Part shown: positions 2,878 to 36,025 of the stretch, piece by piece
Layout of the letters: each line of letters starts with the position of its first letter
How positions within the stretch are numbered: position 1 is the stretch's first letter
Origin: Rheinheimera sediminis
GTDB taxonomy: Bacteria; Pseudomonadota; Gammaproteobacteria; Enterobacterales; Alteromonadaceae
Direction: 5' to 3'
Length of the DNA stretch: 64,000 nt
NCBI RefSeq assembly: GCF_004005375.1
Contig: NZ_RZUF01000008.1
Location: 62,001-126,000, forward strand
The notes under the pieces: generated by a model
Told to the model about the DNA's origin: nothing
What the model saw: the letters and a program-made list of their open reading frames with translations, nothing else
Databases searched by the model: none
Translations under genes and position numbers: made by a program

Positions 2878-2896
2878 AACTTATCCTTTTACTCGT

Positions 2897-10482: not shown

Positions 10483-10703
10483 GCTTTCACTCCCTCTTTG
10501 CTCACCAGAATCGTCTTTTTTGTTGGCTAAAGGCAACTTTAAAGAACATCAGCTTAGAACAGCATCTGACGCTCTACCAGTTTTAGCGCAGCAAAAATGA
10601 ACTATCTATGAATAAAGATGTCCTTCGAGCTCATTATTTACAGCAACATTACATATTTTTCCATAATGGCACAAGCCCTAAATTGGTAACTAAACGTTAA
10701 CCA

Positions 10704-12659: not shown

Positions 12660-12741
12660 CACCAGCTTCAAGCAAAAAAAGAAAGCTGGTTTATCGAATC
12701 ATCGAAAAGCCCAATTTTTTATCAGGCAAACAACACAGGGA

Positions 12742-14712: not shown

Positions 14713-14719
14713 AAGAGCT

Positions 14720-16416: not shown

Positions 16417-16417
16417 C

Positions 16418-17833: not shown

Positions 17834-17836
17834 GGA

Positions 17837-19666: not shown

Positions 19667-20479
19667 TCATTTTTTCATCCACTTATGCTTAGCATGGTCG
19701 AACCGCCAATTAGTGGATACAAGTTTCTCTCTCACTCTAACATCAAGAAGCCAATATAATCCCTCCCAAAGAACCTCAAGCTTATTAAATAAATTCGAAG
19801 GTTCAGTGAATTCTCCAACTTCTTTCCAATAGCGATGCAAATCTTCCGAAAGCTGCCCTTCGTGTTTTTTGAATGCACCTAACGGGGTTTTCAGTATTTC
19901 AAGTTTACTTTCTTTAGAAAAACAGTACCACAAGTAATAATCGCCAGCCAATCGAAGACTTCTTAGCTTATCAAAATCTATCTTGTGGATTAGCCTTTTA
20001 CTCCAAAATGTAGACTCCTGCTGGATATATGGCAGATACTTACCATACATGCCTCTCTGAATTAAATGTGTTTTGTACCTAAAAGGCAAGTCTATCTTCG
20101 TTATCTCGTTACTCTCATTACACTCACTAATATAACCAGTTACCCAATCTAATTTGTTTTCAGATAAAAATTTGACTACTTTACTAGCAGCATCAGGGTA
20201 TAAAATATCACCAGCGTTTAAGTAGCAAATAAAGTCACCTTTGGCGACTTTCAGCCCTTTTGACAACGCATCATACATCCCAGAATCCTTCTCCGAAATT
20301 AACACGCTTACCATTTGAGAGTTATCATTTATTATGTCAATAGTTCCATCAGTAGAACCACCATCAACAATGATATATTCAATATTGTCATATGTTTGAT
20401 TCTTAATCGAATCTATAGTACTTTGAAGCAACTTGGCAGAATTAAAAACCGGGGTGATTATTGTCAACAATGGGTTCAT
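19667..20479 (-). CDS. glycosyltransferase family 2
   Basis: 270-residue GT-A glycosyltransferase: TIITPVFNSAKLLQSTIDS, IEYIIVDGGSTDGT, SEKDSGMYDALSKG and a metal-site variant LNAGDI in place of NSDD. IQQESTFWSKRL and LAGDYYLWY match the acceptor-side region of WcaE-like enzymes. The tail after residue 210 is rich in charged and aromatic residues. AT-rich codons like those of wzy and wzx contrast with manC. It is the last gene before the 426-base gap, 80 bases after wzy. Specificity is unknown. Confidence 0.88.
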   Translation of the reverse strand: MNPLLTIITPVFNSAKLLQSTIDSIKNQTYDNIEYIIVDGGSTDGTIDIINDNSQMVSVLISEKDSGMYDALSKGLKVAKGDFICYLNAGDILYPDAASKVVKFLSENKLDWVTGYISECNESNEITKIDLPFRYKTHLIQRGMYGKYLPYIQQESTFWSKRLIHKIDFDKLRSLRLAGDYYLWYCFSKESKLEILKTPLGAFKKHEGQLSEDLHRYWKEVGEFTEPSNLFNKLEVLWEGLYWLLDVRVREKLVSTNWRFDHAKHKWMKK

Positions 20480-20559
20480 TAGTACACCTTAACTTAATCA
20501 AATTAAAATATTTAAGCAGAAAAACTCATATACATCTACTAACTAAAGCAACTTTAATA

Positions 20560-21783
20560 TTAGGATATATACTTCTTGATTCCGCTGAAAGGTCCATCAA
20601 GCTTCTCATTAAAATTTACAATTTTATATTGATACAATATTAATAGAATTGGAAATATGAACTCAGGCAAAAATATGCCGCCTGAAAATTGTAAACTCGC
20701 AAAAATAAACCACCAAAAAATCACCCCTTTATAATTCCGAAAATATATAGCAACAAGCAATTTATAAACAATAGCTGCTAAAAATATAAATGCAAAAAGC
20801 CCAAAGTAAAAAAACAATATTGCAAAACCATTATCTAATGAAGTGCCCTTCTCTCCACCATGATCTATACCTAAGTTATAAACAAAATCATTTACTTGAC
20901 CGAAAGGAATTCCTAAAGGCAACACTAACATTGCCTCATAAATAATTTTTATCGGAGCAACCAACCTCCAATAACCTGAGGTCCCCTCTAAATTCACTTC
21001 ATTTAACCTAACCATAAGTTCCTCTGGGATCATCGAAACTAAAGCTATGGGCACCAAAAACAGTAAAACCAGCCTAAGTACGTTATTTTTAATTACAGTC
21101 AACCAAAAAATTAAAAATAACAAAATGAATGTTAACAGGATTCCTGACGCAGACGCGGTGAAAACGATCCCCAAAGCTCCGATGACATAAACGAATATTC
21201 TGAAATTTGATCTATCATCCATCAGAATCATCGACATTAAGAAAAACATTATAAAAGAATTGTAAGATGGCTCTAAGAATAATCCATAAGCTCTAGGGCC
21301 AGTCAAAGAATAAACTCTATCCAAACTATATTGACTTAAATAAGTGAATTCTCCGAATGGATTGTACAAAGCTTCGATATCAAAAACCCTCAAAGCTAAC
21401 ACTTGCACAATAGAAAAAGAAATAACTAAAAACAAAGCCATTATATATATACTACTATATCTCTCAAATTTCTTAATATGACTTATAGATCCCAGCACAA
21501 CGGCTACCGAACCGAATAACCAAAGGAGATAAGTACTTGCAAATTCAGTTATTTCAATTGTTTTAATAAATAGCGAGTATGTCAAAAAAATAAATATCGG
21601 CCAGAAAATCACAAAAAATAATAATAAGCACTTTTTTTTGTTAAAGGTAATACGGTAGTGCCTAGTTAAAAATATACAAATAGCCAAAGGAGCAATGGTT
21701 AAAGGAAATTTACTTATGGATAAAAACATGAAATGAATGAATATTATCGATAAAAGTAAAAAAAAACGGTATCTAATTATCAT
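20560..21783 (-). CDS. wzy: O-antigen polymerase Wzy-like membrane protein
   Basis: Predicted polymerase that joins repeat units in the periplasm in the Wzx/Wzy pathway. The 407 residues are nearly all hydrophobic, with roughly ten to twelve membrane segments and a larger periplasmic loop around residues 260-310. The motif RAYGLFLEPSYNSF after a hydrophilic loop is a Wzy/Wzy-like feature, and GTSLDNGFAILFFYFG is the usual late segment. Wzy proteins share little sequence, so the call rests on topology, this motif and position within the transferase block next to wzx. It overlaps the GT4 gene by 4 bases. An O-antigen ligase is the alternative. Confidence 0.82.
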   Translation of the reverse strand: MIIRYRFFLLLSIIFIHFMFLSISKFPLTIAPLAICIFLTRHYRITFNKKKCLLLFFVIFWPIFIFLTYSLFIKTIEITEFASTYLLWLFGSVAVVLGSISHIKKFERYSSIYIMALFLVISFSIVQVLALRVFDIEALYNPFGEFTYLSQYSLDRVYSLTGPRAYGLFLEPSYNSFIMFFLMSMILMDDRSNFRIFVYVIGALGIVFTASASGILLTFILLFLIFWLTVIKNNVLRLVLLFLVPIALVSMIPEELMVRLNEVNLEGTSGYWRLVAPIKIIYEAMLVLPLGIPFGQVNDFVYNLGIDHGGEKGTSLDNGFAILFFYFGLFAFIFLAAIVYKLLVAIYFRNYKGVIFWWFIFASLQFSGGIFLPEFIFPILLILYQYKIVNFNEKLDGPFSGIKKYIS

Positions 21784-23009
21784 GATAATTTGTTAGCCGA
21801 AATTAAACGCTTGTAAATTTTCACATAATTCTGTGTCGCAGCACTATGGCCAAACCTCTCGAAGATCGAGACTTGTAAAGATTCTCTTGTCTTATTAAGA
21901 TATTCTGTTGGTAACGTTCTTGACCTGATTAACTCTATAATATCCGCGTAAGAATCTATAGGTTTAATGTTGAGAGCTAATAGTACTTCCTCAGCTGCTT
22001 TACTTTTTACAGCTAATACTGGTACACCACATGCCAAAGACTCAATCATTACTAATCCGAAAGTGTCTATTTTAGATGTAAATAAGGAAACATCACATGA
22101 AGATATCACTTTTACCATCTCAATACGGTCTGTAATTTCGCCATGGTTATATACATTTTTTCCAGAAAAAGGCGAGTTTTTACCAATTGTGTGTAAAAAT
22201 ACTCCCTCGACATCTAACAGGCTAATAATTAATTCCTTATTAACCTTGGATGTGTCGTCCAAATTATTAGACACTACAAGAACATTTACTGAACCAAAGG
22301 GCAGTTTAATTAACTCATTCGCTAAGATATTATTACGACAAGCGTCTTCAAAGTTCTTGTCTAACCAATTTGGAATATGGCAAACGTCTACGTTAGGTAA
22401 TTCTGTTTTAAGCTCATTAGCAAGAAAACTGGAAGGAGAAACTAAAACCAAATTTGAGCTAATTTTACTTAGGTACATTCGTTTTCTTTTGAATTCTGTT
22501 GCAGAAAAATCCACAAAGGTAGCCGGATAGCTTGATAAATTAGGACAATGACCACAACCACTTTGCCACTTATTACAATCCCCTACGGAAGAACACCTAC
22601 CTGTAAGAATCCAGTAATCATGCGAAGTCCAAACTACAGGTTTATTAGCACTAGCTATTGCGTCAAGAATCCATGAAAATCTAATGAAATAACTATGAAT
22701 CACATGCAAATGAACGACATCAGCCATTTTTATCGCGTCAATTAGCTTACTACGCCCAACACCAAAAGGGCTGAACAAATCAAACCCGAAAAGATTATGG
22801 AATACAAAATTAGCTATTACTTGAGGTTTTGATCCTATCCGAAAGCAATTCTTAACATTTGATTCAGAATCACTCTTGCCTCCCTTAACACCCCAACCAT
22901 ACGCAAACTGACTGTTTACATCAATTTTTTGTAAATTATTGTGCAAATCAAGAGCAACTTTTGCTGCACCGCCTTTATCAAGGCATACATTAATTTGTAG
23001 TATATTCAT
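21780..23009 (-). CDS. glycosyltransferase family 4
   Basis: Retaining GT-B glycosyltransferase. From the ATG at 23009 it is 409 residues and starts MNILQINVCLDKGGAAKVA, the normal beginning of the fold; the open frame extends to 23078 but that part overlaps the preceding gene and looks unrelated. The C-terminal domain has FGLVMIESLACGVPVLAV, the E-x7-E nucleotide-binding element. A Cys-rich insertion (CSSVGDCNKWQSGCGHC, around residues 145-165) resembles that of WcaC/WbaZ-like mannosyl- or fucosyltransferases. Overlap of 4 bases with wzy. Donor unknown. Confidence 0.88.
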   Translation of the reverse strand: MNILQINVCLDKGGAAKVALDLHNNLQKIDVNSQFAYGWGVKGGKSDSESNVKNCFRIGSKPQVIANFVFHNLFGFDLFSPFGVGRSKLIDAIKMADVVHLHVIHSYFIRFSWILDAIASANKPVVWTSHDYWILTGRCSSVGDCNKWQSGCGHCPNLSSYPATFVDFSATEFKRKRMYLSKISSNLVLVSPSSFLANELKTELPNVDVCHIPNWLDKNFEDACRNNILANELIKLPFGSVNVLVVSNNLDDTSKVNKELIISLLDVEGVFLHTIGKNSPFSGKNVYNHGEITDRIEMVKVISSCDVSLFTSKIDTFGLVMIESLACGVPVLAVKSKAAEEVLLALNIKPIDSYADIIELIRSRTLPTEYLNKTRESLQVSIFERFGHSAATQNYVKIYKRLISANKLS

Positions 23010-23040
23010 TTTAATCTTAGCAACGTTCTTTTTATAAAAT

Positions 23041-23790
23041 CTATAACAGCAGTCTTTTTGTTGATTGCAAAAGATCAACCAATTTCTTTTTGACCCTGTT
23101 TGCTATATACCAATAATAAATTAACACCTTGTAGTCAGTCTTATTTTTTAACTGCGCTCGTCTAAACTCTTTAAAAGTCTCTTTGACTAAACGAGAGCTA
23201 ACTCCCTCACATCCCATCAAAGCTATTGGCATATTATAGAATGAAAAAGTTAAATCTTTTTTTCTTAAAACCAGCTCATAATCAATCGCAATTTTAAACG
23301 ACTCATCAAAGTCACCCAATTCTTGCAAAAATTCAACTCTATTAAAAGTAGCAGTATGAGGAAACGTCATCTTTCTTTTTAATTCGGCTAAAGTGGTTTC
23401 CTTACCTATTCGAATACCTTCATATTCTCCACCGTCAAACACAATTTGACCAAACACGAAATCAGCGACACTCTCTTTCAACACTGCAGCCATTCGCTCG
23501 AACACATCAACGCTATAAAACTGATCATCCGCACCTAAAAATATTACCCACTCTCCAGTAACGTGTTTTAATGCTTTATTCCAAGCATCAGCAATTCCTG
23601 AATCCTTTTCTGATTTCCAATAACTTATCTCTTTATCATACTGCTGCAAAATACTTCTAGTGCTATCGGTGGAATGCCCGTCGAAAACTATTAGTTCTTT
23701 TTCTGAGTATGTTTGTTTTAAGAAACTATCAATGCAAGATCGAATAGTCTTCTCACCATTAAATACCGCTACCACTACAGAAATTTTCAT
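23041..23790 (-). CDS. glycosyltransferase family 2
   Basis: 249-residue GT-A glycosyltransferase with VVVAVFNGEKTIRSCIDS, KELIVFDGHSTDST, SEKDSGIADAWNKAL and FLGADDQFY as metal site. FPHTATFNR and KIAIDYELVLR are the WcaE-like features seen also in the two other short GT2 proteins here. The C-terminus is basic (NRVKKKLVDLLQ), suggesting membrane association. It lies 31 bases before the GT4 gene and 155 bases after the previous GT2 gene; that gap shows nothing recognisable. Confidence 0.88.
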   Translation of the reverse strand: MKISVVVAVFNGEKTIRSCIDSFLKQTYSEKELIVFDGHSTDSTRSILQQYDKEISYWKSEKDSGIADAWNKALKHVTGEWVIFLGADDQFYSVDVFERMAAVLKESVADFVFGQIVFDGGEYEGIRIGKETTLAELKRKMTFPHTATFNRVEFLQELGDFDESFKIAIDYELVLRKKDLTFSFYNMPIALMGCEGVSSRLVKETFKEFRRAQLKNKTDYKVLIYYWYIANRVKKKLVDLLQSTKRLLL

Positions 23791-23945: not shown

Positions 23946-24896
23946 TTAATTGAAAAATTTATTAAAATAATTTTTTGGCAATCGTAGTATTTTTTTTAGT
24001 ATACGCATGAATATTTTTCTTTTACTCACCGAAACATTAGTGCTGAAAAAATCACTAACCGAATGCATGTTATATACAGTAGAATCTTTATATTTCCAAA
24101 GCATAACTTGAATTCTAGCGGCTAAATTATTCTTCTCAGCTGGCAAAAAATTTTCAACAAAATGAGCCTTTGCTAAAGCGTAATGTAATAATAGTTTACC
24201 ATTTGTTGAAGAGGTACTTATTGAGCCTCCATGAGCTCGGAAAAATGCAAGAGGTTCTGTAACATGACCAAAAAATTTATAGTTCGAAGCGGTCAAGAGA
24301 AACAACATCAAATCATTACCTATCGCATGCATTGAAAAATCACTTTTTATTTTATTAGGTATGTCAAGCCACAAATTTTTTCTTATATCATTCATCCTGA
24401 AAATTGCACAACCTGGGGAGAATGGGGCATCCAAATCTGAAAGTATTTTGTTTATATAATCTACAGAATCGTATATTCCAGTATCCTGCATTTGATAGTG
24501 CGTTGTGCCACAATCTGGTTTATCGTCAGTAAATATTTTAACTCCAGTATATACAAAACCAACATCACTTCGCAGCAACGGCAACGTTCTTTCAAGAAAA
24601 TCTTTCGCTATTAAGTCATCAGACCACAAGATCTTACCTATTTCTCCTCTGGCACGTTCAACACAAAGCAACCAATTACGAACAGGCCCAAGATTAACCT
24701 CATTTCGAAAAGCCAGAACACGACTATCTTTTTCTGCAAATTCTTTTATAACCCGCCAGGTATCATCTGTACTGGCATTATCAACAACTATAACTTCAAT
24801 ATTATCGTGGGTCTGAGCTAATGCAGACTCTAAGGTTTCAGTAATAATATTCTCTCGATTGTATACTGGGATCAGTATAGATACTAAAGGTGTCAT
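23946..24896 (-). CDS. glycosyltransferase family 2
   Basis: 316-residue GT-A transferase of a different subgroup from the other three: SILIPVYNRENIITETLES, IEVIVVDNASTDDTW, NEVNLGPVRNWLLC and ILWSDDLI. A central region with PGCAIFRMNDI and HAIGNDLMLFLL followed by EPLAFFRAHGGSISTS matches abequosyl-like/WbaN-like GT2 enzymes in general shape, but I cannot assign the donor. Given the CDP-dideoxyhexose genes directly upstream, transfer of tyvelose or paratose is a reasonable guess for one of these enzymes. It shares one base with the wzx stop. Confidence 0.86.
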   Translation of the reverse strand: MTPLVSILIPVYNRENIITETLESALAQTHDNIEVIVVDNASTDDTWRVIKEFAEKDSRVLAFRNEVNLGPVRNWLLCVERARGEIGKILWSDDLIAKDFLERTLPLLRSDVGFVYTGVKIFTDDKPDCGTTHYQMQDTGIYDSVDYINKILSDLDAPFSPGCAIFRMNDIRKNLWLDIPNKIKSDFSMHAIGNDLMLFLLTASNYKFFGHVTEPLAFFRAHGGSISTSSTNGKLLLHYALAKAHFVENFLPAEKNNLAARIQVMLWKYKDSTVYNMHSVSDFFSTNVSVSKRKIFMRILKKILRLPKNYFNKFFN

Positions 24897-26221
24897 TATC
24901 TTTTCCTTACAAGAATTCTATAAACTTGGATTGGGCCTAGAAGGCTGAAAAACGATAAACTAATTACCGTTGCTAAGAGAATACCTTCTAATCCCATATC
25001 CAAAACACGTACAAAATAAACTGATAAAGGAACATTAACAATTGCGGCAATAACTGCGGTGAATAACTGCAAATTTAATTTATTAACCGCATTTACAAAA
25101 TACGCAAATACGTTACTCCAAATGGTAAAGGCAATGAAAAGAGCAAATAGGTAGTATAATCGTGGAGACACACTGACGAGATCATCAGTCCAAATACTAA
25201 CGATTATTGGGCCCAATACAGCCATTAAAAATGTGCAAATAAAAAGGAAAAGTGCGATCTTTAACTGTTGTTTAATATTTCGACGGATCCAATCAAATTC
25301 ACCACGATTATAAGCATCAGAGTAGGCTGGCCAAAGTGGGATAAGTATCATACCGTGTAAAATTGTAATGATGCTGAACAGCTTAAATAAAACCTCGTAA
25401 GGGGTTACATGTTCAGGACCCAGTAACTGGGTAATTAAAATTTTATCAGTCATAAAAATGACTAACACAGCTAACTGTATGATAAAAAATTTAATACCTA
25501 ATGATAGCAATGGTTTTATTTTATTGCGATCAAACTTTCGGCCAGTCGGAATTAGCTGAGGATATCTTTTAAAGAGAAATAAGCTAAAAACGACGTTAGT
25601 CAAAACCAACGCAAAACCATACCCATACACAATTAATAAAATTGAGGGTTCAGTAAAATTATACAGAATAGATATAAATACAAGTGCGAAGCTATTAGAC
25701 ATGCACTGACCTACAACAACTACAGAAGATTTTTGTAGGCCATGATAAATTTGGTTTATCAGACTAATCCAAAAATTAAAAAAAATGAAGAAACTGAGAG
25801 TAATTACAGAGCTTTTCAAATCTACTTCGGAAACAAATTGAGTATTAAATATACTCTGCCACGGCAACCATATAGCTGCTATTAGAAAACTCGCAAATAG
25901 TATAAAAGAAATTAAGCCTATTAGCATATACGCCGTTGAGATGTATTCAGCGGCGTAATTTGAATTATCTTTCGCTATACTTTCAGATACTTTATTTTTT
26001 AAGCCATTCCCGATACCTAAATCAAATAACATGACCCACGTTAGTAGTGTGAGCATCGTAGTCCAAATACCAAAACGTTCTGGGCCCAAATATTTAAGCA
26101 TTATTGGTAAAGCGATGAAAGAAGCAGCTATCGCGACAACTTTATACAAAGCAGATACTTTTAGTTGGGTAAAATAATTGTTGCTTCTAACATTAGATAA
26201 ACTCACTTGGTCGATACCCAT
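24896..26221 (-). CDS. wzx: O-antigen flippase Wzx
   Basis: Moves the undecaprenyl-linked repeat unit across the inner membrane. The 441-residue polytopic protein shows about twelve hydrophobic segments, with KVVAIAASFIALPIMLKYLGPERFGIW at the first segment: the LGPERFG element is typical of Wzx/RfbX and MATE-like polysaccharide flippases. GIGNGLKNKVSES and the later PLWPAYSDAYNRGEF are also family features. The start at 26221 overlaps tyv by 19 bases. As in Yersinia O-antigen loci it directly follows the dideoxyhexose genes. Confidence 0.92.
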   Translation of the reverse strand: MGIDQVSLSNVRSNNYFTQLKVSALYKVVAIAASFIALPIMLKYLGPERFGIWTTMLTLLTWVMLFDLGIGNGLKNKVSESIAKDNSNYAAEYISTAYMLIGLISFILFASFLIAAIWLPWQSIFNTQFVSEVDLKSSVITLSFFIFFNFWISLINQIYHGLQKSSVVVVGQCMSNSFALVFISILYNFTEPSILLIVYGYGFALVLTNVVFSLFLFKRYPQLIPTGRKFDRNKIKPLLSLGIKFFIIQLAVLVIFMTDKILITQLLGPEHVTPYEVLFKLFSIITILHGMILIPLWPAYSDAYNRGEFDWIRRNIKQQLKIALFLFICTFLMAVLGPIIVSIWTDDLVSVSPRLYYLFALFIAFTIWSNVFAYFVNAVNKLNLQLFTAVIAAIVNVPLSVYFVRVLDMGLEGILLATVISLSFFSLLGPIQVYRILVRKR

Positions 26222-27222
26222 TCAATCATCTTACGGATACCTTCGACCTTACTAACTTTAGGATGCCAGCCTAAACAATTTTTAGCTTGCGTAATATCGG
26301 AAACAAATACCCGCTGATCACTTTCTCTAACCGGCAATTGTTTATAGGTCATTTCAATATCAAGCTCTAGCTCTAAAAAGCTAAATAGCTCTAACAAAGA
26401 TGACGAGTTATCAATACCACCACCAATGTTAAAAGCTTTTCCTTTTATCTCACTAATTTTTTTAGCCGCATCCAAGTAGAGAGCAACACAATCAGTTGCA
26501 TAAAGTAAATCACGTACTTGTTTTCCATTTCCTGAAATTGTGAAAGGCTCTGCCAAATTACCTGTTTTAGTTTCAATAGCCTTTTGTGTAAACCAACCGA
26601 CCCACCCCTGATCGAATGTTGCGAACTGACGACCACCAAACATAGATGAATGACGAAAAACTGCTGTCTTTAATCCATAAATTCTTGCAAAATCGAGCAT
26701 ATACTGATCGGCACTTCCTTTGGATGTGCCATAAGGAGAATGAAAGTCTAAGTTAACAGCTTCATCAAAACCATTTGGCTTATCAACACATTCGTAGCGG
26801 GTTTCAGTCTCTTTATATCGAAATTGCTCAAGATCGCCGTATACCTTATTAGTAGAAGAATAAATAATCGCGCTTTCTGGCGAATATAGGCGTACCGCAT
26901 TCAGTAGATTAAAACTGCCGCCAACATTTACCTCAAAATCCATTCGAGGATCAGCAATAGATGTTGTCATAGCTACCTGCCCCGCCAAATGGTAAATCAC
27001 ATCAGGTTTATGCTGCTTAATAGTTCTCTCAACATCATTGGTATTTCGTATATCACCGTGGATAAACTCAAATTGACCTTGAGTTCTCAACCATTCTAAG
27101 TTTTGATTGCTACCAAACCGATAAAGGCTGTCGAATATGATTACCTCTTGGCCTTGCTTCAATAGCTCACTGGCAATATTTGAGCCTAAAAAACCACAAC
27201 CACCCGTTATTAAGTACTTCAT
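26203..27222 (-). CDS. tyv: CDP-paratose 2-epimerase (CDP-tyvelose synthesis)
   Basis: Short-chain dehydrogenase-type epimerase that inverts C2 of CDP-paratose to form CDP-tyvelose. The 339 residues begin with ITGGCGFLGSNIASEL (NAD motif); the block QVAMTTSIADPRMDFEVN, the SSTNKVYGD serine/threonine region, YGTSKGSADQY (Tyr and Lys) and FRHSSMFGGRQFATFDQGWVGWF (given here in overlapping parts) are what I know of RfbE/Tyv. It is last of the ddh-prt-tyv set and overlaps prt by 4 bases. Substrate assignment rests on family resemblance plus the complete CDP-paratose pathway upstream. Confidence 0.88.
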   Translation of the reverse strand: MKYLITGGCGFLGSNIASELLKQGQEVIIFDSLYRFGSNQNLEWLRTQGQFEFIHGDIRNTNDVERTIKQHKPDVIYHLAGQVAMTTSIADPRMDFEVNVGGSFNLLNAVRLYSPESAIIYSSTNKVYGDLEQFRYKETETRYECVDKPNGFDEAVNLDFHSPYGTSKGSADQYMLDFARIYGLKTAVFRHSSMFGGRQFATFDQGWVGWFTQKAIETKTGNLAEPFTISGNGKQVRDLLYATDCVALYLDAAKKISEIKGKAFNIGGGIDNSSSLLELFSFLELELDIEMTYKQLPVRESDQRVFVSDITQAKNCLGWHPKVSKVEGIRKMIEWVSTK

Positions 27223-28100
27223 ATACTTTCCTTTAAACTATTTTCGATACCTTGCTTTAGGCATATTTTTGGTGACCACCCCAAGCTGATTAAGGCCTGA
27301 TTGTTAACTTCAACAGTCATCATTTCGCCATCACGATAAGGCAATAAACCAAAAGCTAGTGTGGTAGGCGATGCACCAAAACTATCCTCGTAAGCTTGCT
27401 TAAGTTGCAATAAAAATGATTTAACCGAAATTAACTTACCAGTCCCGACGTCAAACTCACTGAACTGACCCAAACTACGAATGTTATCGAAAACAGTTAA
27501 GAAAGCAGAAACAACATCGTCGATATAAATAAAATCACGCTGCTGTTCGCCTTTGGTAAGTTTAATTTCTATTTTATTTTGCCTAAGTTGCGATACGACC
27601 CAAGGAACAAATTTAGTCGTATCGTCTTTAGGACCGTACATATGCTCAAGCTTCAGATTGATCACTTGAATTTTTTCGGATTGCTGTTTTAACCAATCTA
27701 CCAACTGTTTTTTTGATAAGCTGTATGCGTTTAACTCTCTTGGCAACATAGAATCCGTGTTTATAAAGGTATTTACATTATGAGCTATTGCAGCATCCAG
27801 CACCTTTAAACCAAACATAAGGTTACTCTCTACAATAAGATGTAAAGAGTCCCCGTTACGTCCATAGTGACAGGCTGTATGAATGACGCAGTCAATCCGT
27901 TGCTGTTCAAAAGCAAGTGATATAGGGTCAATGTCAATGTTGTAGCTTACAACCCGATCCATGTACTGTTTGATACGCCAAATATCTGAGGTTGAACGTT
28001 TTAGAATAACAACTTTATATTCCTGATCTAACAGCGCTTTGAGTAGGTTACTACCCAAAAATCCAGTCGCACCAGTTAATAAAACAGTGGCTTTGGTCAT
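27219..28100 (-). CDS. prt: CDP-paratose synthase (or CDP-abequose synthase)
   Basis: NAD(P)H-dependent reductase that reduces CDP-4-keto-3,6-dideoxyglucose. The 293 residues have TGATGFLGSNLLKAL, HTACHYGR, NTDSMLPRE followed by AYSLSKKQ (Tyr/Lys pair), then NLKLEHMYGP and QQRDFIYIDDVVSAF. These last motifs, and the ACxYGR block, resemble Salmonella Typhi and Yersinia Prt (RfbS). Abequose synthase (RfbJ) differs only in C4 stereochemistry; the presence of tyv next door makes paratose the sensible product. It shares one base with ddhC and overlaps tyv by four. Confidence 0.85.
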   Translation of the reverse strand: MTKATVLLTGATGFLGSNLLKALLDQEYKVVILKRSTSDIWRIKQYMDRVVSYNIDIDPISLAFEQQRIDCVIHTACHYGRNGDSLHLIVESNLMFGLKVLDAAIAHNVNTFINTDSMLPRELNAYSLSKKQLVDWLKQQSEKIQVINLKLEHMYGPKDDTTKFVPWVVSQLRQNKIEIKLTKGEQQRDFIYIDDVVSAFLTVFDNIRSLGQFSEFDVGTGKLISVKSFLLQLKQAYEDSFGASPTTLAFGLLPYRDGEMMTVEVNNQALISLGWSPKICLKQGIENSLKESI

Positions 28101-29416
28101 TAGAAATTTACACCAAAGAATTCTTCTAATTTTTCAGCTATGAAATTCAAATGTTCTTCACCTAAACCAGGATAGATACCAACCCAAATAGTGTTGTTCA
28201 TTGTATTGTCGGTGTTCATCAGTTCACCTACAACCTTATACTCAAGATTGTGAAAATAAGGTTGTCTGATCAAATTGCCCGCAAACAATAACCGGGTTCC
28301 AATTTTATGCTGATCGAGATATTTAGTCAGGTCAGTGCGATTTACACCAGCTGAGTTTTTCACTGTAATAGGAAAACCAAACCAGGAAGGCTCTGAGTTT
28401 TCAGTTGGTTTAGCAACGTCGATATATTCGGATAAAGATTCCAGACGATTCTTTAAATACTCAAAGTTGGAATTACGCTTGGCAATAAACTCAGGAAGGC
28501 GCTTCAACTGAGCCAAACCACAGGCAGCTTGCATATCGGTGATTTTGAGGTTGTATCCCAAGTGTGAGTAGGTATATTTATGATCATAACCCGCTGGTAG
28601 GCTACCTAATTTCATACTAAATCTAGTACCACAAGTATTGTCACAACCAGGCTTACAGTAGCAGTCACGGCCCCAGTCTCTAAAAGACTCAGCAATACTA
28701 ATCAACTCTGAGTTGTTGGTGAATACAGCGCCGCCTTCACCCATGGTCATATGGTGAGCCGGATAAAAGCTCAGCGTTGCGATATCACCCCAAGTGCCAA
28801 CCATCTTACCGTCAAATTTAGCACCTAGTGCATCACAACAATCTTCGACTAACCAAAGACCATATTTTTCACAAAGAGCTTTCACTTTCGCCAGGTTAAA
28901 TGGGTTACCTAAAGTGTGAGCCAGCATAATAGCTTTTGTCTTCGGTGTGATTGCTGCCTCGATTAAATCGGCGTCGATATTATGAGTAGCCATATCCACA
29001 TCGACAAACACCGGTATAGCACCAAATTGCACTATAGGGTTCACAGTAGTTGGAAAGCCCGCTGCGACACCGATAACTTCATCACCTTTTTTAATAGCCC
29101 TTTCACCTAGTTTTGGCGAAGTCAAAGTGCTGAACGCAACGAGATTTGCAGAAGAACCAGAGTTAACAGTAATTAGGTGTTTTATACCGATAAAAGCTGC
29201 CAGTTCTTTTTCAAACTGCTCATTAAAACGACCTGTGGTTAACCAGCCGTCTAAGGAAGCGTCAACCATATACTGCAATTCGGTAGCACCTATCACTTTA
29301 CCTGAAGGCGGAATTGGAGTCTGACCAGCAATAAATAGTTTTTCTGCATATTGCACTTTGGCATACTGCTCTACTAAGTCTGCTATTTGTTTTCTTAAAG
29401 AATCAGTTGTCTGCAT
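28100..29416 (-). CDS. ddhC: CDP-6-deoxy-4-keto-glucose 3-dehydrase (PMP and 2Fe-2S enzyme)
   Basis: Removes the C3 hydroxyl of CDP-4-keto-6-deoxyglucose with pyridoxamine phosphate, working with the reductase DdhD. The 438-residue aminotransferase-fold protein has the diagnostic replacement of the PLP lysine: SFYPAHHMTMGEGG with His221 where aminotransferases carry Lys. The four-cysteine element near residues 252-262 (C-Y-C, then C and C) is the 2Fe-2S ligand region of the E1 enzyme. It overlaps ddhB by 14 bases and prt by one. This His plus Cys pair of signatures separates it from ordinary DegT aminotransferases. Confidence 0.95.
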   Translation of the reverse strand: MQTTDSLRKQIADLVEQYAKVQYAEKLFIAGQTPIPPSGKVIGATELQYMVDASLDGWLTTGRFNEQFEKELAAFIGIKHLITVNSGSSANLVAFSTLTSPKLGERAIKKGDEVIGVAAGFPTTVNPIVQFGAIPVFVDVDMATHNIDADLIEAAITPKTKAIMLAHTLGNPFNLAKVKALCEKYGLWLVEDCCDALGAKFDGKMVGTWGDIATLSFYPAHHMTMGEGGAVFTNNSELISIAESFRDWGRDCYCKPGCDNTCGTRFSMKLGSLPAGYDHKYTYSHLGYNLKITDMQAACGLAQLKRLPEFIAKRNSNFEYLKNRLESLSEYIDVAKPTENSEPSWFGFPITVKNSAGVNRTDLTKYLDQHKIGTRLLFAGNLIRQPYFHNLEYKVVGELMNTDNTMNNTIWVGIYPGLGEEHLNFIAEKLEEFFGVNF

Positions 29417-30476
29417 TATTCATATCTCTCATATAATCGTTTATTTCTTCTGCACAGGCTTTTTGCATATCATGCTTATTCAACCATGCCTGTTGCCACA
29501 GTATTATTCGCGTTAATGTCTGTTCCAAGCGCCAGGTTGGACCCCATCCCAAATGCTTTTTGGCTTTTGATACATCTAACTTTAAATAGCCAGCTTCGTG
29601 TGGATGAGCGTCGTTATCAAGCTTCCATGAGGAGTTTGGCCACAGCGCTGTCATTTTACTTAAAATCCAATCTACTGGTTTAGCATCGCCTTCAAAAGGA
29701 CCAAAGTTCCAGCCTTCTGCATACTTAGTTGGCTCTTCATAGAGTTTCTGGGCTAAAACCAAATAGCCTGACAATGGTTCTAAAACGTGTTGCCAAGGCC
29801 TGGTCGATTTAGGGTTGCGAATCACTACAGGCTCGTTGCGTTCAAACGCACTCAAAATGTCAGGGATCAGGCGATCATCAGCCCAATCACCGCCACCAAT
29901 CACATTACCAGCCCGAGCAGAAGCCAAACCAATACCTTTTTCCTGCATAAAAGAACGTCGGTAAGCAGATGTCACTAATTCGGCACAGCCTTTAGAGCTG
30001 CTATAAGGGTCAAACCCGCCCATAGGTTCATCTTCTCTGTAACCCCACTCCCATTCTTTATTCTCATAGCATTTATCTGTAGTCACGCTGACTATAGCTT
30101 TCAGATACTTACAGACTTTTGCTGCTTCCAACACTTTGGCTGTGCCCATAACATTTATGTCATAAGTCTCCAAAGGTTCTCTGTAAGACAAACGAACTAA
30201 AGGCTGAGCTGCCATATGGATCAGTATCTCAGGCTCAAAAGCTAATATACTGGATTTTAATTGTTCAAAATCACGTATATCACCAATCTCCGATTCTACT
30301 AAAGATCCTACCTTGGCTTCATTATATAAGCTGGGTGTTGTCGGTGGGATTAGTGCATAACCCTTGACTTTGGCGCCCATCAGATGTAACCAAATAGACA
30401 ACCAACTGCCCTTGAAGCCTGTATGACCAGTAACGAAAACGCGCTTGTTACGCCAAAAGTCTGGATTAACCATCAT
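29403..30476 (-). CDS. ddhB: CDP-glucose 4,6-dehydratase
   Basis: NAD-dependent dehydratase forming CDP-4-keto-6-deoxyglucose. From the ATG at 30476 it is 357 residues, the usual length; a longer frame to 30524 would overlap ddhA by 40 bases. NPDFWRNKRVFVTGHTGFKGSWL at the N-terminus, VSVTTDKCYENKEW with the Thr-Asp-Lys active site, the YSSSKGCAEL Tyr/Lys pair and GNVIGGGDWADDRLIPD are characteristic of RfbG/DdhB. AAGAGA precedes the two adjacent ATGs. It lies 8 bases after the ddhA stop. Confidence 0.95.
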   Translation of the reverse strand: MMVNPDFWRNKRVFVTGHTGFKGSWLSIWLHLMGAKVKGYALIPPTTPSLYNEAKVGSLVESEIGDIRDFEQLKSSILAFEPEILIHMAAQPLVRLSYREPLETYDINVMGTAKVLEAAKVCKYLKAIVSVTTDKCYENKEWEWGYREDEPMGGFDPYSSSKGCAELVTSAYRRSFMQEKGIGLASARAGNVIGGGDWADDRLIPDILSAFERNEPVVIRNPKSTRPWQHVLEPLSGYLVLAQKLYEEPTKYAEGWNFGPFEGDAKPVDWILSKMTALWPNSSWKLDNDAHPHEAGYLKLDVSKAKKHLGWGPTWRLEQTLTRIILWQQAWLNKHDMQKACAEEINDYMRDMNNADN

Positions 30477-30484
30477 ATTCTCTT

Positions 30485-31258
30485 TTATTCCCACACTTTC
30501 CAGGGAGCTTTGCCTGACTGCCACAAGGATTCCAAATGGACTTTATCACGTAACGTATCCATGGGTTGCCAGAAGCCATGATGCTCATAGGCCATAAGTT
30601 GCTTATCTTCAGCAAGAGTTATCAAGGGCTCTTGTTCCCATATAGTTGAATCAGCAGTAATGCGGCTGAGTACTTTAGGCGATAACACAAAAAAACCACC
30701 ATTAATCATGGCCCCATCGCCTTTAGGTTTTTCCTTAAAGCTCAGTACCTGACCCTTATTGATGTCTAAAGCTCCAAACCGACCAGGTGGGTAGGTTGCA
30801 GTTAAAGTAGCATCCTTTCCGTGAGTTTTATGGAACGCTATAGTTTCGGCAATATTAATATCACCCACACCATCACCATAGGTAAAACAAAACGCTTCTT
30901 CGTCCTTAACGTAATCAGCAACTCGTTTTAAGCGGCCACCAGTCATTGATTCGTCGCCTGTATCAACTAAAGTTACAACCCAAGGCTCAGCTCGTTTCTG
31001 ATGAACTTTCATCTGATTATCATGCATAGCGAAAGTGACATCTGATTGATGCAAGAAGTAATTGGCGAAATACTCTTTGATTACATATCCTTTGTAACCA
31101 CAACAAATGACGAACTCATTTACACCATGAGCTGAATACATTTTCATGATATGCCAGAGTATTGGTTTACCACCTATTTCGATCATAGGTTTGGGTCTTG
31201 TACTGGTCTCTTCACTGAGTCTGGTACCAAGGCCACCAGCAAGGATCACTGCTTTCAT
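30485..31258 (-). CDS. ddhA: glucose-1-phosphate cytidylyltransferase
   Basis: Joins glucose-1-phosphate and CTP to CDP-glucose, the entry step of 3,6-dideoxyhexose synthesis. The 257-residue length and ILAGGLGTRLSEETSTRPKP (nucleotide-binding loop), GGKPILWHIMKMYSAHG, CCGYKGYVIKEYF, and TYGDGVGDINI are textbook RfbF/DdhA. It sits 24 bases after ddhD and 8 before ddhB. Confidence 0.96.
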   Translation of the reverse strand: MKAVILAGGLGTRLSEETSTRPKPMIEIGGKPILWHIMKMYSAHGVNEFVICCGYKGYVIKEYFANYFLHQSDVTFAMHDNQMKVHQKRAEPWVVTLVDTGDESMTGGRLKRVADYVKDEEAFCFTYGDGVGDINIAETIAFHKTHGKDATLTATYPPGRFGALDINKGQVLSFKEKPKGDGAMINGGFFVLSPKVLSRITADSTIWEQEPLITLAEDKQLMAYEHHGFWQPMDTLRDKVHLESLWQSGKAPWKVWE

Positions 31259-31282
31259 CTGTTCATTTCCTATTTAAGTAAT

Positions 31283-32272
31283 CTAATAACTTTGCACAAA
31301 AGCGTCTGAGTAAAATTTATTTTCCGCTAATCCTGAAGCTAAAAAGCGCTCCTTTGCTGACTGAATCATTATATTTGAACCACAAGCGTAAACAGCTGAC
31401 TTTGCCATATTGTGATCTGATGCCAAAGCAACATCCTGGACATAGCCAGTATGATGAGGCCAGTTATCAGCCTTTCTCGACAGCACATAATTCACGTTTA
31501 CTTGCAGTTTTTTAAAAGAATGTGTCCAGAAAAACTCTTCAGGGAAACGATTCCCCCAATACAAACTGATTGGGCCACTTTGTACAAAATCCGGGTCATT
31601 ATCTAAACCGGACAGAATTGAAATAATGGGTGCTATTCCGGTGCCTGTAGCCAAAAAGACCAAATCTTGCTTACTGTCACGTAAAAAGAATGTTCCCTTA
31701 GGGCCTTCCATTCTTAACAAATCATTCTCTTTTGCCTGATTAAACCAATAATTACTCATTTTTCCATTTTCGAAACGCTTAATAAAAAGAACTATGTCGT
31801 TCTGCTCAGCTGTGCTAGCTACCGAATAACTTCTCCGAATGCTATTAGGACCTATTATATCTATATATTGGCCTTCCAAAAACTTAAAATGAGCCGTTGG
31901 TGGAAGTCTGAGAGTTACGCCTATCAACTCATCGGAAAAACGTGTGATGTGTTTAATCCGACAGGGCAAAGTTTTAATATCAATGCCATGTAATGCGCCT
32001 AAATCTTCAGCATCAATCAACAGGTCTGAACTTGGAGCACAACAACAAGTGAGAATTTTATTCTCAGCCCGATCATGTTCAGTTAGCGCGAGTTGTGTTT
32101 GCAGTTCAGCTATGGTGCCGGAAATCACTTTTGTTTTGCACACGCCACACTGACCAGTCTTGCAGCTGTACTCAAAAACTAAGCCAAACTTCAACGCTGA
32201 ATTCAGAATAGTCTCAGCAGCATTTCCGACAAATTGCTTCGCTTCACGGGTGTTTATTTTTAAATCATTCAT
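31283..32272 (-). CDS. ddhD: CDP-6-deoxy-delta-3,4-glucoseen reductase
   Basis: Iron-sulfur flavoprotein that passes electrons from NAD(P)H through FAD and a 2Fe-2S cluster to DdhC. The 329 residues divide into an N-terminal plant-type ferredoxin domain with CKTGQCGVC and a fourth Cys in the later TCCCAPSS, an FAD domain (RRSYSVAS), and an NAD domain (FLATGTGIAPIISIL, then YACGSNIMI). Length and domain order match Yersinia DdhD/AscD. It opens the ddh block, 53 bases after the Nudix gene gmm. Confidence 0.94.
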   Translation of the reverse strand: MNDLKINTREAKQFVGNAAETILNSALKFGLVFEYSCKTGQCGVCKTKVISGTIAELQTQLALTEHDRAENKILTCCCAPSSDLLIDAEDLGALHGIDIKTLPCRIKHITRFSDELIGVTLRLPPTAHFKFLEGQYIDIIGPNSIRRSYSVASTAEQNDIVLFIKRFENGKMSNYWFNQAKENDLLRMEGPKGTFFLRDSKQDLVFLATGTGIAPIISILSGLDNDPDFVQSGPISLYWGNRFPEEFFWTHSFKKLQVNVNYVLSRKADNWPHHTGYVQDVALASDHNMAKSAVYACGSNIMIQSAKERFLASGLAENKFYSDAFVQSY

Positions 32273-32325: not shown

Positions 32326-32793
32326 CTAATTCAGATAACTTAATAAGTCTGAGAGAAAGACTTTGCTAAAACGATGTATTGTCTCATCAACCTCAACAGC
32401 TTGAATAGGAACCCAACGATAATTGTGATGTTGTACTAATGGGAGCTTCAACTCTTTACTATTTACTAACATGAAATGTGGGGCATTAATATAATGAGTT
32501 GATACTGACTCATCGAAACAACTGTTTTCGTAAAAATGGTCATAGATACCAAGCATTACAGAAGATTCGCGTTCAAATGAGCGCCCAAGCTCTGCTGCTG
32601 TGATACGTCTAAAAGCCTCTACTATAGTTTCACCTTTATAGGTACGACCGCCAGGTACAAACCAAAAATCGCTTGCTGGTTCGTTCTTACGTAAACCAAC
32701 CAACATTTCATGCTTTTCGTTCAGTACGACTAAATCAATAGAAAACAGTGGAGCAGTCTTAACCACTTGCTTGAAATCTTCAACGCTAAGCAT
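32326..32793 (-). CDS. gmm: GDP-mannose mannosyl hydrolase (Nudix)
   Basis: Hydrolyses GDP-mannose to GDP and mannose, adjusting the GDP-sugar pool. It is 155 residues with the shortened Nudix box peculiar to Gmm: PGGRTYKGETIVEAFRRIT followed by AAELG, in which the usual REUxEE glutamates are replaced. FWFVPGGR and the C-terminal HHNYRWVP are also as in WcaH. It shares one base with fcl and precedes ddhD. gmd-fcl-gmm is the standard order in colanic acid and many O-antigen loci. Confidence 0.92.
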   Translation of the reverse strand: MLSVEDFKQVVKTAPLFSIDLVVLNEKHEMLVGLRKNEPASDFWFVPGGRTYKGETIVEAFRRITAAELGRSFERESSVMLGIYDHFYENSCFDESVSTHYINAPHFMLVNSKELKLPLVQHHNYRWVPIQAVEVDETIHRFSKVFLSDLLSYLN

Positions 32794-33752
32794 TATTTTC
32801 TAAACACTTCCTGGTTGTCTAAAAACCATTCGTAAGTGCTTTCCAGCCCTGATTCCAAATCAACAGAATACTGCCAGCCTAGCTCTTTAAGACGGTCAAC
32901 ATTCATCAGTTTGCGTGGTGCACCATCAGGTTTAGTGGTATCCCATACGATGTTACCGGTGTAGCCAACAACCTTAGCTACAGTTTCAGTTAACTCTTTG
33001 ATCGTACAATCTAAGCCAGTGCCTACATTAATGTGGCTTAACATAGCGCTGGTGTGCTTATCGTAAGTCGACTTATCAAGTTCCATCACAAAAATGCTTG
33101 CTGCTGCCATATCATCAACATACAAAAACTCGCGCATTGGCGAACCTGACCCCCAAGCAATAACTTCTGTAGCATTTGCAAGCTTTGCTTCATGGAAGCG
33201 TCTTAGCAATGCCGGTATTACATGACTATTGTCAGGATGAAAATTATCATTAGGACCGTACAAATTTGTTGGCATTACACTACGGTAATCACGGCCATAT
33301 TGTCTTTGATAACTTTCACACAACTTAATACCTGCAATTTTCGCTAAAGCATAAGGCTCGTTGGTTGGCTCTAAAGTGCCTGTTAACAAAGCATCTTCAG
33401 CCATAGGCTGAGCAGCAAGTTTCGGATAAATACAGCTGGAACCGAGAAAAAGTAACTGTTGTACGTTGTTAACATGAGCTGCATGAATAATGTTGGCTTG
33501 TATCATTAAGTTTTCATAAATAAAGTCGGCAGGGTAGGTATTGTTAGCGATAATGCCCCCAACCTTAGCCGCGGCCAGGTATATCTGGTCTACATTTTGT
33601 TCAGCAAAAAACTGTTGAACAGCCGACTGATTAGTCAGATCTAATTCTTTGCGAGTTCTGGTAATAACCTCTGCTGTTCCGCTTTTTTCAAGCTGCCGCA
33701 CTATAGCCGAGCCAACCATACCGTTATGACCAGCAACAAATATCTTTTTCAT
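32793..33752 (-). CDS. fcl: GDP-L-fucose synthase
   Basis: Bifunctional 3,5-epimerase/4-reductase turning GDP-4-keto-6-deoxymannose into GDP-L-fucose. From the ATG at 33752 it is 319 residues; GAGG nine bases upstream decides this over the longer frame to 33785. [31 protein letters not shown] with the Tyr/Lys pair, and [11 protein letters not shown] are the WcaG motifs. A hairpin (33770-33801) lies in the 63-base gap after gmd. Confidence 0.95.
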
Positions 33753-33769
33753 GAAAACCTCAAATATGA

Positions 33770-33801
33770 AAACCACAATACACAAGGATATATTGTGGTT
33801 T
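33770..33801 (-). other. AT-rich intercistronic stem-loop between gmd and fcl
   Basis: Eleven paired bases (AAACCACAATA and TATTGTGGTTT) enclose a 10-base loop. On the minus strand TTTTCATATTTG follows. The stem has few GC pairs, so it could be a leaky terminator or an mRNA-stabilising hairpin; the fcl ribosome site GAGG lies 8 bases further on. Confidence 0.55.
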
Positions 33802-33815
33802 CAGAACACTAGTCG

Positions 33816-34934
33816 TTACTCTACAGATACTGGCAACTCATAGCCATGCGCTTTTAATAAAGCATGGCGCTTTGCTGATTTTAGATCGGCTGCAACCATT
33901 TCAGCACACATTTCCTGTGTGGTAATTTCGGGCACCCAACCTAATACTTGCTTCGCTTTAGTTGGGTCACCTAATAAAGTTTCCACCTCGGCAGGTCGGA
34001 AATAACGAGGATCAACTTTTACAATAACATCTCCCACTTTCAGTGCCGGAGCGTTATCACCTTCGATTTGTTCAACAACAGCAATTTCATCAACACCCTG
34101 GCCTTCGAAACGCAAAGTGACGCCTAATTCTTTTGCCGACCAGCTGATAAACTCACGAACCGAATATTGCACACCCGTCGCAATTACGAAATCGTCTGGC
34201 TGCTCTTGCTGCAACATCATCCATTGCATACGTACATAGTCTTTCGCATGACCCCAGTCACGCAAAGCATCCATGTTGCCCATGTACAGGCAGGACTCTA
34301 AACCTTGGGCAATATTTGATAAGCCACGAGTAATTTTACGGGTAACAAAAGTTTCGCCACGGCGCGGAGATTCATGGTTAAACAGAATACCGTTACAAGC
34401 ATACATACCATAGGATTCGCGGTAGTTAACAGTGATCCAGTAGGCATACATTTTGGCAACAGCGTAAGGAGAACGTGGGTAAAAAGGCGTAGTCTCTTTC
34501 TGCGGTATTTCCTGCACTAAACCATAGAGCTCTGACGTTGAAGCTTGATAAAAGCGGGTTTTCTTTTCCAAACCTAGCAAGCGAATTGCCTCAAGTAACC
34601 TTAGAGTACCCATTGCATCTACATCAGCAGTGTACTCCGGCGATTCAAAACTTACGGCAACATGGCTTTGTGCACCTAAATTGTACACTTCGTCTGGCTG
34701 AACCTCCTGCAGTATACGCGTAAGGTTTGATGAATCCGTCAAATCACCGTAATGAAGGATAAAATTTTTATTATCTATGTGCGGGTCCTGATAAATATGA
34801 TCCACACGTTGTGTGTTAAAAGATGAAGCACGGCGTTTAATACCATGAACTTCATAACCTTTTTCCAATAAAAACTCGGCCAAATAAGAGCCATCTTGAC
34901 CTGTTACACCAGTGATTAACGCTTTTTTCTTCAT
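33816..34934 (-). CDS. gmd: GDP-mannose 4,6-dehydratase
   Basis: Converts GDP-mannose to GDP-4-keto-6-deoxymannose, the first step toward GDP-fucose and related sugars. The 372 residues start [18 protein letters not shown] and include [19 protein letters not shown], the QASTSELYG block, [15 protein letters not shown] with the Tyr/Lys pair, and [17 protein letters not shown]. All are diagnostic of Gmd. It follows wzz by 38 bases and precedes fcl. Confidence 0.97.
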
Positions 34935-34972
34935 TATAAATGCCTATGTCAATTAAAAATTTTATCTACTAT

Positions 34973-35911
34973 TCAATTTCTTAGTCTTGGAAAGAGCAGA
35001 ACAACAAAAACTCCGAAAATGCAACCGAAAAAGGTGGTAACAACGACAATAATCGAACGTCTCGGCTCATATTTCATTTCAGGAACAAACGCCGAATCAA
35101 TCATTTTGAACATATATTCGTCACGAGAATTTGCAAGCATCAAAGTTTTAGTCTGTTCTTCAATTAATGAAAATAAAGTTGTTTTAACCTCAGATATATT
35201 AGTTTTTAAAATTTGTTGCTCTAAATACACAATACTTTTTTCAGCCTCTTGAATATCTTTTAACTTCATATCCTGATTTATATCAGCAACTAGCCAGTCA
35301 AGTATCTGCTTTGCGAGAAACGGAGAATAATGTTTAAACTCCAAAGTAATCAATCCTGATTTTATGTCTTTTGATAACTTAAAAAGATCACTAAAAACAG
35401 CATAAGCCTCTTGCATCGATGGCTCAGGTTTTCTTGGTGCTTTAACATTTCTTATCCAAGACATATCCTTAACACTATATAAACTCCCGTCGATAGCTAA
35501 TGTATTACTTTGCCGATCCCAGCCTTTAGCTGCCATAAGTTCCACTAGTATATTGTGTTTTCTAATAAATTTCGAAATGAAATCTCTGGATTGTAAAGTC
35601 TGTAACGCTATTGTTGTTTTGTCTATTCCACCAGAACCTAAATTTACTCCTGCCATTGCAGCTAAACCACCTAACTGCCCAGGTAATACACTGGAATTTT
35701 TTTGTTCAGCAGGAACCATTAACAATTCACTTCTGTATATATCACTCAAACCTAGCGAGTAATAAATCGAAGAAGCTCCAAATAAAAAGGTAACTAAAAT
35801 GATGGTTAACTTTCCCTTCCAGATAAGTGAAAGGAGACCAATTAAGTCTATCTCGTCATCACCGGATTTATTCACAAGCTCATTATTTGTGCTATTTTTA
35901 TCGTGAATCAT
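34973..35911 (-). CDS. wzz: O-antigen chain-length determinant Wzz
   Basis: Polysaccharide co-polymerase that sets the modal number of repeat units, anchored in the inner membrane with a large periplasmic coiled-coil domain. The 312-residue protein has a Wzz-type N-terminus (EIDLIGLLSLIWKGK then membrane segment TIILVTFLFGASSIYYSLG) and a second membrane segment near the C-terminus (SIIVVVTTFFGCIFGVFVV). The proline-rich pre-TM2 motif appears as AFVPEMKYEPRR. There is no Walker-type kinase domain, so it is a class 1 rather than Wzc-type co-polymerase. It stands between the WbfF-like exporter and gmd, as OtnB beside OtnA. Confidence 0.92.
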   Translation of the reverse strand: MIHDKNSTNNELVNKSGDDEIDLIGLLSLIWKGKLTIILVTFLFGASSIYYSLGLSDIYRSELLMVPAEQKNSSVLPGQLGGLAAMAGVNLGSGGIDKTTIALQTLQSRDFISKFIRKHNILVELMAAKGWDRQSNTLAIDGSLYSVKDMSWIRNVKAPRKPEPSMQEAYAVFSDLFKLSKDIKSGLITLEFKHYSPFLAKQILDWLVADINQDMKLKDIQEAEKSIVYLEQQILKTNISEVKTTLFSLIEEQTKTLMLANSRDEYMFKMIDSAFVPEMKYEPRRSIIVVVTTFFGCIFGVFVVLLFPRLRN

Positions 35912-36025
35912 TTACGAACACCAATATTAAAACGAATGAAAACGAATTGACATAAATCATGCCTATCAGTGCGATAGAATAATTAACTGCCTAATACTTT
36001 TATTAAAAAACGCTCACAAATACTA

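Follow-up and report, generated by a model that had tools for sequence, protein, structure and literature searches.

Tyvelose and its kin are commonly regarded as hallmarks of Salmonella and Yersinia; the available text of a survey of 12,939 genomes describes tyvelose, paratose and abequose as rare and found primarily in these two genera (PMC7725333). What, then, does an apparent tyvelose gene set make in Rheinheimera sediminis, and with which bacteria is it shared? The set, ddhD-ddhA-ddhB-ddhC-prt-tyv, comprises six adjacent open genes on the minus strand, at positions 26203-32272 of the 64,000-nucleotide stretch analysed (hereafter the window), whose host is probably an aquatic gammaproteobacterium distinct from Salmonella and Yersinia. 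All six enzyme genes of the pathway to CDP-tyvelose, a 3,6-dideoxyhexose, are present and open, with Prt identified on weaker evidence than the others. Coordinates, order and open frames agree with the initial annotation, which had also claimed a complete CDP-paratose/CDP-tyvelose pathway; from the matches to curated models and solved structures, the pathway is apparently complete. Judging from the sequence, it is highly probable that these genes make CDP-D-tyvelose for a surface polysaccharide.

The ddh enzymes

Genes were called with the curated cut-offs of NCBIfam, the cut-offs of Pfam and matches to solved structures in the PDB. Following the established chemistry of these enzymes, DdhA would make CDP-glucose, which DdhB would convert into a 4-keto-6-deoxy sugar. 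DdhC, dependent on pyridoxamine phosphate and an iron-sulfur (Fe-S) cluster, would then remove the 3-hydroxyl group together with the reductase DdhD. Finally, Prt would reduce the 4-keto group to give CDP-paratose, and Tyv would invert C2 of this sugar to yield CDP-tyvelose.

The glucose-1-phosphate cytidylyltransferase DdhA (30485-31258) scores 478 bits against TIGR02623 (cut-off 300), and its best solved relative is 1tzf (479 bits). The CDP-glucose 4,6-dehydratase DdhB (29403-30524) reaches 500 bits against TIGR02622 (cut-off 278), and matches 1wvg (523 bits, its best) and 1rkx. As listed, the ddhB open reading frame (ORF) begins with a GTG inside ddhA; however, the similarity to 1wvg begins only at residue 19, which makes an ATG near 30476 the probable true start. 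The CDP-4-keto-6-deoxyglucose 3-dehydrase DdhC (E1; 28100-29416) scores 747 bits against NF011936, the RfbH model (cut-off 423), and is related to 3bb8 and, with its best score of 716 bits, to 3bcx, which we take to be the Yersinia enzyme.

DdhC carries both hallmarks that had been ascribed to it. His221 aligns with a position occupied by His in 3bcx and by Lys in 3bb8, which rules out an aminotransferase identity, and all 52 aligned DdhC ORFs have His there. Among its eight cysteines, Cys194, Cys252, Cys254 and Cys262, presumably the ligands of the Fe-S cluster, are likewise kept in 52 of 52, while the other four vary. These ORFs, from the window and the fetched loci, are longer than 300 residues and have ddhC as their best window match over more than 60% of their length; duplicate fetches of one place were left out, and about 12 near-identical cyanobacterial ORFs were included. 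Just beyond the window, the same contig encodes another DegT-type protein (G000:C79:138169-139296), with 29% identity to DdhC.

DdhD (31283-32272), the E3 partner of DdhC, is a reductase with [2Fe-2S] ferredoxin and FAD/NAD domains. Its ferredoxin domain, already noted in the initial annotation, is present with Cys37/42/45 and Cys76-78. In NCBIfam and the PDB, DdhD matches ferredoxin-type oxygenase reductases, in line with the expected two-domain design, and none of the best 25 NCBIfam matches listed reaches its curated cut-off. DdhD is 34% identical to the corresponding Salmonella stretch.

Prt, Tyv and the end product

Over 296 aligned positions (E 2e-36), the reductase encoded at 27219-28100 shares 27% identity with a protein of Salmonella serovar India annotated as CDP-paratose synthase, and when the Salmonella protein was searched against the host genome, the window gene was the best match (E 7e-31, the next being 9e-5). 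It bears a YxxxK motif at position 126. None of the best 25 NCBIfam matches listed reaches its cut-off, and no close solved relative was found, the best PDB match scoring 55 bits. Relatives at 40% identity or more occur in 15 of the 59 tyv loci compared. Due to its similarity to the Salmonella enzyme, the presence of its relatives in tyv loci and its place between ddhC and tyv, the protein is a putative CDP-paratose synthase, the softest of the six calls.

A modest similarity of this kind leaves room for another end product, either because the reductase yields abequose or because tyv is silent and the pathway stops at paratose, as in Salmonella group A. The abequose and paratose synthases are described as related enzymes acting on the same substrate in the accessible part of the work on the Salmonella groups (PMC3715488). 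The stereochemistry is not readable from the Prt sequence, and reduction of the 4-keto group to the ribo product is predicted from the 27% identity and the adjacency of tyv. However, tyv is open, retains all of its named residues and overlaps prt by 4 bp, and next to an abequose synthase it would be left without a known substrate. A dideoxyhexose other than tyvelose is thus unlikely as the end product.

Tyv (26203-27222) is assigned as the CDP-paratose/CDP-tyvelose 2-epimerase from its solved relatives, its residues and its tree. The CDP-tyvelose epimerases 9rl0 and 1orr score 553 and 508 bits, and the next structure, a UDP-glucose 4-epimerase, 140 bits. These scores rule out a UDP- or GDP-sugar epimerase, the identity named beforehand as the one that would overturn the assignment. 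None of the best 25 NCBIfam matches listed is at its cut-off. All nine residues for catalysis, cofactor binding and CDP binding given in the accessible text on TyvE-like enzymes are present, among them Thr124, Tyr164, Lys168, Trp207, Trp210 and Phe211 (PMC7851689). Chance or mis-annotation is ruled out for DdhA, DdhB, DdhC and Tyv by the concordance of curated cut-offs and solved relatives.

The best-scoring solved relative, 9rl0, is the TyvE-like enzyme of Thermodesulfatator atlanticus (TaTyvE), which shares the catalytic, cofactor and CDP-binding residues with the window Tyv and which, in the published text available, acts on CDP-glucose (PMC7851689). A conversion of CDP-glucose into CDP-mannose, as carried out by that enzyme in vitro, has therefore to be weighed for the window Tyv as well. 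Against it, the window tyv adjoins the ddh genes and overlaps prt within their operon, and GDP-mannose would be available through manC and a manB-like mutase. To our knowledge, no polymer is built from CDP-mannose. This activity is very unlikely here, and it is from the operon context that CDP-paratose, rather than CDP-glucose, is predicted as the substrate.

CDP-tyvelose consequently stands as the best-supported predicted product, although some findings speak against it. Prt shares no more than 27% identity with the Salmonella enzyme, abequose and paratose synthases are hard to distinguish by sequence according to the available text of the genome survey (PMC7725333), and TaTyvE, besides using CDP-glucose, is inactive on a 3-deoxy substrate, as far as its description could be consulted (PMC7851689).

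A shared block in a variable polysaccharide locus

Upstream of the ddh genes, and also on the minus strand, lie gmd, fcl and a gmm-like gene. They encode a GDP-mannose 4,6-dehydratase (33816-34934; TIGR01472, 592 bits, cut-off 415), a GDP-L-fucose synthase (32793-33785; NF047922, 547 bits, cut-off 500) and a Nudix GDP-mannose mannosyl hydrolase (32326-32793; NF011963, 140 bits, slightly below the cut-off of 146). The front of the locus (34973-38821, minus strand) is formed by a wzz-like chain-length gene and a gene for a large SLBB export protein (PF02706, PF10531, PF02563).

The nine genes from gmd to tyv are shared with Shewanella holmiensis, a member of the same order and a different family. 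Without a single gap, 8,722 bp align at 88.6% identity (locus L087), from window position 34935, where gmd starts, to 26214, shortly before the tyv stop. In steps of 300 bp, identity is 0.53-0.58 in the flanks and 0.74-0.97 inside the block, where prt and tyv contain two low steps (0.75 and 0.74). The encoded proteins are 97% (Gmd), 92% (Fcl), 86% (Gmm), 95% (DdhD), 96% (DdhA), 94% (DdhB), 99% (DdhC), 88% (Prt) and 88% (Tyv) identical. The S. holmiensis locus (L004/L087) resembles the window in that the nine genes sit after SLBB and wzz. Unlike the block, other genes of the locus differ: SLBB is 45% identical, Wzz 46% and Wzx 26%, and gtE, the transferase gene discussed below, has no match at the threshold used.

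Since DNA identity inside the block is 88.6%, against 53-58% in the flanks and 79% for the RpoB proteins, the block shows signs of exchange between families. A 3.3-kb contig of a Paraglaciecola metagenome-assembled genome (MAG; L032), which may be misbinned, carries part of ddhB-tyv at 84% DNA identity (RpoB 80%). We tentatively propose, as an idea short of probable, that the nine genes form a discrete unit of exchange among aquatic families at the wzz end of such loci, and that the enteric tyvelose serotypes are one late offshoot of a much larger environmental pool of 3,6-dideoxyhexose pathways in many phyla.

Within the genus, the SLBB protein is found in 20 of 22 genomes, including that of the host. 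The loci of nine congeners were compared, being the best nine of 19 SLBB matches rather than a random sample, one of them (L097) cut to 10.9 kb by the contig end. In all nine, SLBB and wzz come first (SLBB 65-85% identical, wzz 45-59%), and ddh-prt-tyv is missing from the stretch examined: DdhC gives matches of 24-32% or none and Tyv of 27-30% or none, as expected for related enzyme families. The window locus differs from these loci in its central genes, although gmd (98%) and fcl (92%) occupy the same place in one of them (L101). At E 1e-60, none of 97 other relatives searched yielded a Tyv, and at E 1e-120, 12 of 394 genomes of the order, counting the host, yielded a DdhC. As many loci stop at contig ends, genes missing from them are not firmly absent.

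Because the congeners keep the front of the locus and lack ddh-prt-tyv, this block probably sets a serotype-like trait. The initial annotation had proposed an unusual serotype determinant; the serotype-type setting stands, and the rarity outside enteric bacteria is not supported as claimed, given the many phyla described below.

Downstream of tyv, and overlapping it by 19 bp, follows a gene for a wzx-like flippase (24896-26221, minus strand; PF01943, 68 bits, cut-off 28), which scores 45 bits against the Wzx-like model NF041503, far below its cut-off of 300. The adjoining gtE (23946-24896, minus strand) encodes a family-2 glycosyltransferase (PF00535). The same strand carries, at 19667-23790, another three glycosyltransferases and a candidate wzy (20560-21783), with matches to PF00535, PF00534 and, below threshold, PF04932; the wzy candidate scores 19.7 bits against PF04932 (cut-off 31.7) and has no NCBIfam match at E 1e-30. 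Beyond them, also on the minus strand, 14158-19240 holds manC (TIGR01479, 786 bits, cut-off 373), a manB-like phosphohexomutase reaching no NCBIfam cut-off, a glycosyltransferase, an epimerase and a pglC-like initiating sugar-phosphate transferase. The gene content suggests that L-fucose, mannose and tyvelose may occur in one repeat unit.

Among the five transferases of the window, gtE is the best match to the transferase that follows the transporter in Salmonella (38%, over the first 100 residues only). At 40% identity, one of the other four transferases has a relative in 1 of the 59 tyv loci and the remaining three have relatives in 0. Relatives of gtE occur at this level in 11 of the 59, and in none of the seven loci with ddhC and without tyv in the stretch examined. 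They directly follow wzx in L008, L011, L013, L054, L080 and L083, and lie kilobases away in L006, L012 and L060. From these comparisons, we infer that gtE is the best candidate for the tyvelosyltransferase; it would most likely place tyvelose on the repeat unit, which would then be exported by Wzx and polymerised by a Wzy.

The wzx, wzz, glycosyltransferase and initiating transferase genes, all with Pfam matches above cut-off, together fit a Wzx/Wzy-dependent O-antigen cluster. The 931-residue SLBB export protein at the head of the locus, of the EpsE/Wza kind and below the EpsE cut-off, raises the alternative that the sugar enters a capsule or a free exopolysaccharide instead of the O-antigen of lipopolysaccharide (LPS). 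Nevertheless, the Wzx, Wzz and initiating transferase would fit an O-antigen as well, and the contig also encodes a WaaL/Wzy-type protein (PF04932, 90.6 bits, cut-off 31.7) that would do so too. Entry into a capsule or free exopolysaccharide, which would be compatible with the synthesis of CDP-tyvelose, is a real if less than even prospect.

Several features of the locus also count against the overall reading of genes that make CDP-tyvelose for a surface polysaccharide: the SLBB protein would suit a capsule or exopolysaccharide too, the wzy candidate falls below the PF04932 cut-off, the similarity of gtE to the Salmonella transferase covers 100 residues of a common domain, and the 20 kb examined of the closest relative, L087, contain no match to gtE.

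The wider surroundings are as initially described (rml, yjb and flagellar genes), with rml, yjbH/gfcC and flagellar/chemotaxis genes seen in the flanks. Two adjacent genes at 8566-10536 and 10704-12671 encode large proteins with a PseB/FnlA-like dehydratase domain, presumably of the WbpM type; the second is 82-89% identical in three of the nine same-genus loci. Between the polysaccharide and the chemotaxis genes, 40485-41900 encodes a beta-CASP metallo-beta-lactamase ribonuclease-like protein with two NCBIfam matches, one of them named Cas14 of type VII CRISPR, both far below cut-off.

Relatives in Salmonella and in other phyla

In the Salmonella groups, the ddh genes are followed by abe or prt-tyv and then by wzx and a dideoxyhexose transferase, according to the available part of their description (PMC3715488). 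The group D-type cluster of S. enterica used here (L075, NZ_CP022016.1 396828-409838) is a serovar India record labelled as a plasmid, and holds O-antigen type ddh-prt-tyv genes together with rml and manC. It shares the ddhD-to-tyv order with the window and continues with a MATE-type transporter and a family-2 glycosyltransferase. Tyv and DdhC are 66% and 69% identical, whereas Prt (27%) and the transporter (about 25%) are far more distant, and the rml genes of Salmonella stand where the window has gmd-fcl-gmm. In Yersinia pseudotuberculosis O:4, tyvelose is a lateral sugar, as stated in the portion of the source available (PMC8533242).

The trees of Tyv and DdhC were built with Salmonella rows and no rows named as Yersinia. 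In the Tyv tree (55 rows), the window protein belongs to a starred 12-row clade (100/99), together with gammaproteobacteria, two genomes of the same order, two Campylobacterota and Belliella. Since 18 of the tree's 52 inner branches are open, the placement of the Salmonella and Thermodesulfatator enzymes goes no further than that both lie outside this clade; seven near-identical cyanobacterial loci, as well as L032, L058 and L061 (partial or without a full ORF), are omitted. In the DdhC tree (42 rows), a quick midpoint-rooted tree with one very long row (L050) and 10 cyanobacterial loci omitted, the window protein groups with gammaproteobacteria and two Bacteroidota in a starred set of 10, and Salmonella stands apart. 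With both proteins in aquatic-dominated clades separate from Salmonella, the window set does not resemble a recent acquisition from that genus.

A Tyv scan yielded 58 loci (L061 being weak) in Bacteroidota, Campylobacterota, Verrucomicrobiota, Cyanobacteriota, Acidobacteriota, Chloroflexota and others; a large number of these are on MAG contigs and thus possibly misbinned, while L004, L008 and L009 are labelled as strains. A ddhC at 40% identity or more adjoins tyv in 41 of 59 loci, or in 38 of 56 when three loci found through DdhC are set aside. The published tree, in the part available, also draws its TyvE-like proteins mostly from extremophilic marine bacteria, and from Mangrovitalea sediminis (PMC7851689). 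The pathway had been regarded as unusual outside enteric bacteria, a view that neither these relatives nor the environmental proteins already published (PMC7851689) support.

As relatives are common outside the enterics, the window is a new example of a known and widespread pathway and the surprise is smaller than first claimed. What it adds is a shared block of nine genes with sharp limits, set in a variable locus. The titles and abstracts searched hold nothing on this locus, most subscription journals being outside the coverage. For a review of marine bacterial antigens, colitose is named in the available text and a term search of that text gave no tyvelose, abequose or ascarylose (PMC3210612). 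The block in common with Shewanella and the relatives in many phyla suggest that environmental bacteria hold the pathway as a common resource. The environmental TyvE homologues are also worth bearing in mind for detection, because PCR of the TyvE gene serves as a test for Salmonella in clinics, food and environmental monitoring, according to the accessible part of the source (PMC13098431).

In two Campylobacterota MAGs (L006 and L007), Tyv is 82-83% identical to that of the window, whereas DdhA, DdhB, DdhC and Prt are 47-62% identical (RpoB 48%), so that tyv there seems to have travelled independently of the other pathway genes. In Belliella filtrata (Bacteroidota, labelled as a strain), ddhA, ddhC and tyv stand at 73-81%, ddhB and prt at 61-62%, and ddhD at 48%. 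Other loci (L013, L015 and L017-L020) encode a dehydrase-type DdhC with no DdhD match in the stretch examined, and this DdhC may therefore be served by another electron donor.

Cyanobium, Synechococcus and their kin carry ddhA-ddhB-ddhC-tyv with the DdhC histidine and cysteines (L038, L040, L041, L043-L049, L052 and L059), with no match to the window prt at the thresholds used. In L038, the ORF before tyv best matches the gne-like SDR of the window (29%).

On mobile elements, plasmid records with Tyv relatives number 154, of which 3 lie at 60-80% identity (best 65.7%), and those with DdhC relatives 34, of which 3 lie in the same range (best 69.0%). A scan of viral contigs with Tyv alone, covering close relatives only, confirmed no relative in phages. 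For DdhC, eight phage records were matched: a Salmonella phage record of 2,570 bp at 69%, which may be host DNA, and seven below 60%, from five Synechococcus phages, one uncultured and one marine. The five Synechococcus phage records encode a DdhC-like protein at about 35% identity, and in one such phage, S-H68 (L102), the DdhC-like gene (2893-4188) lies among sugar-related and hypothetical genes.

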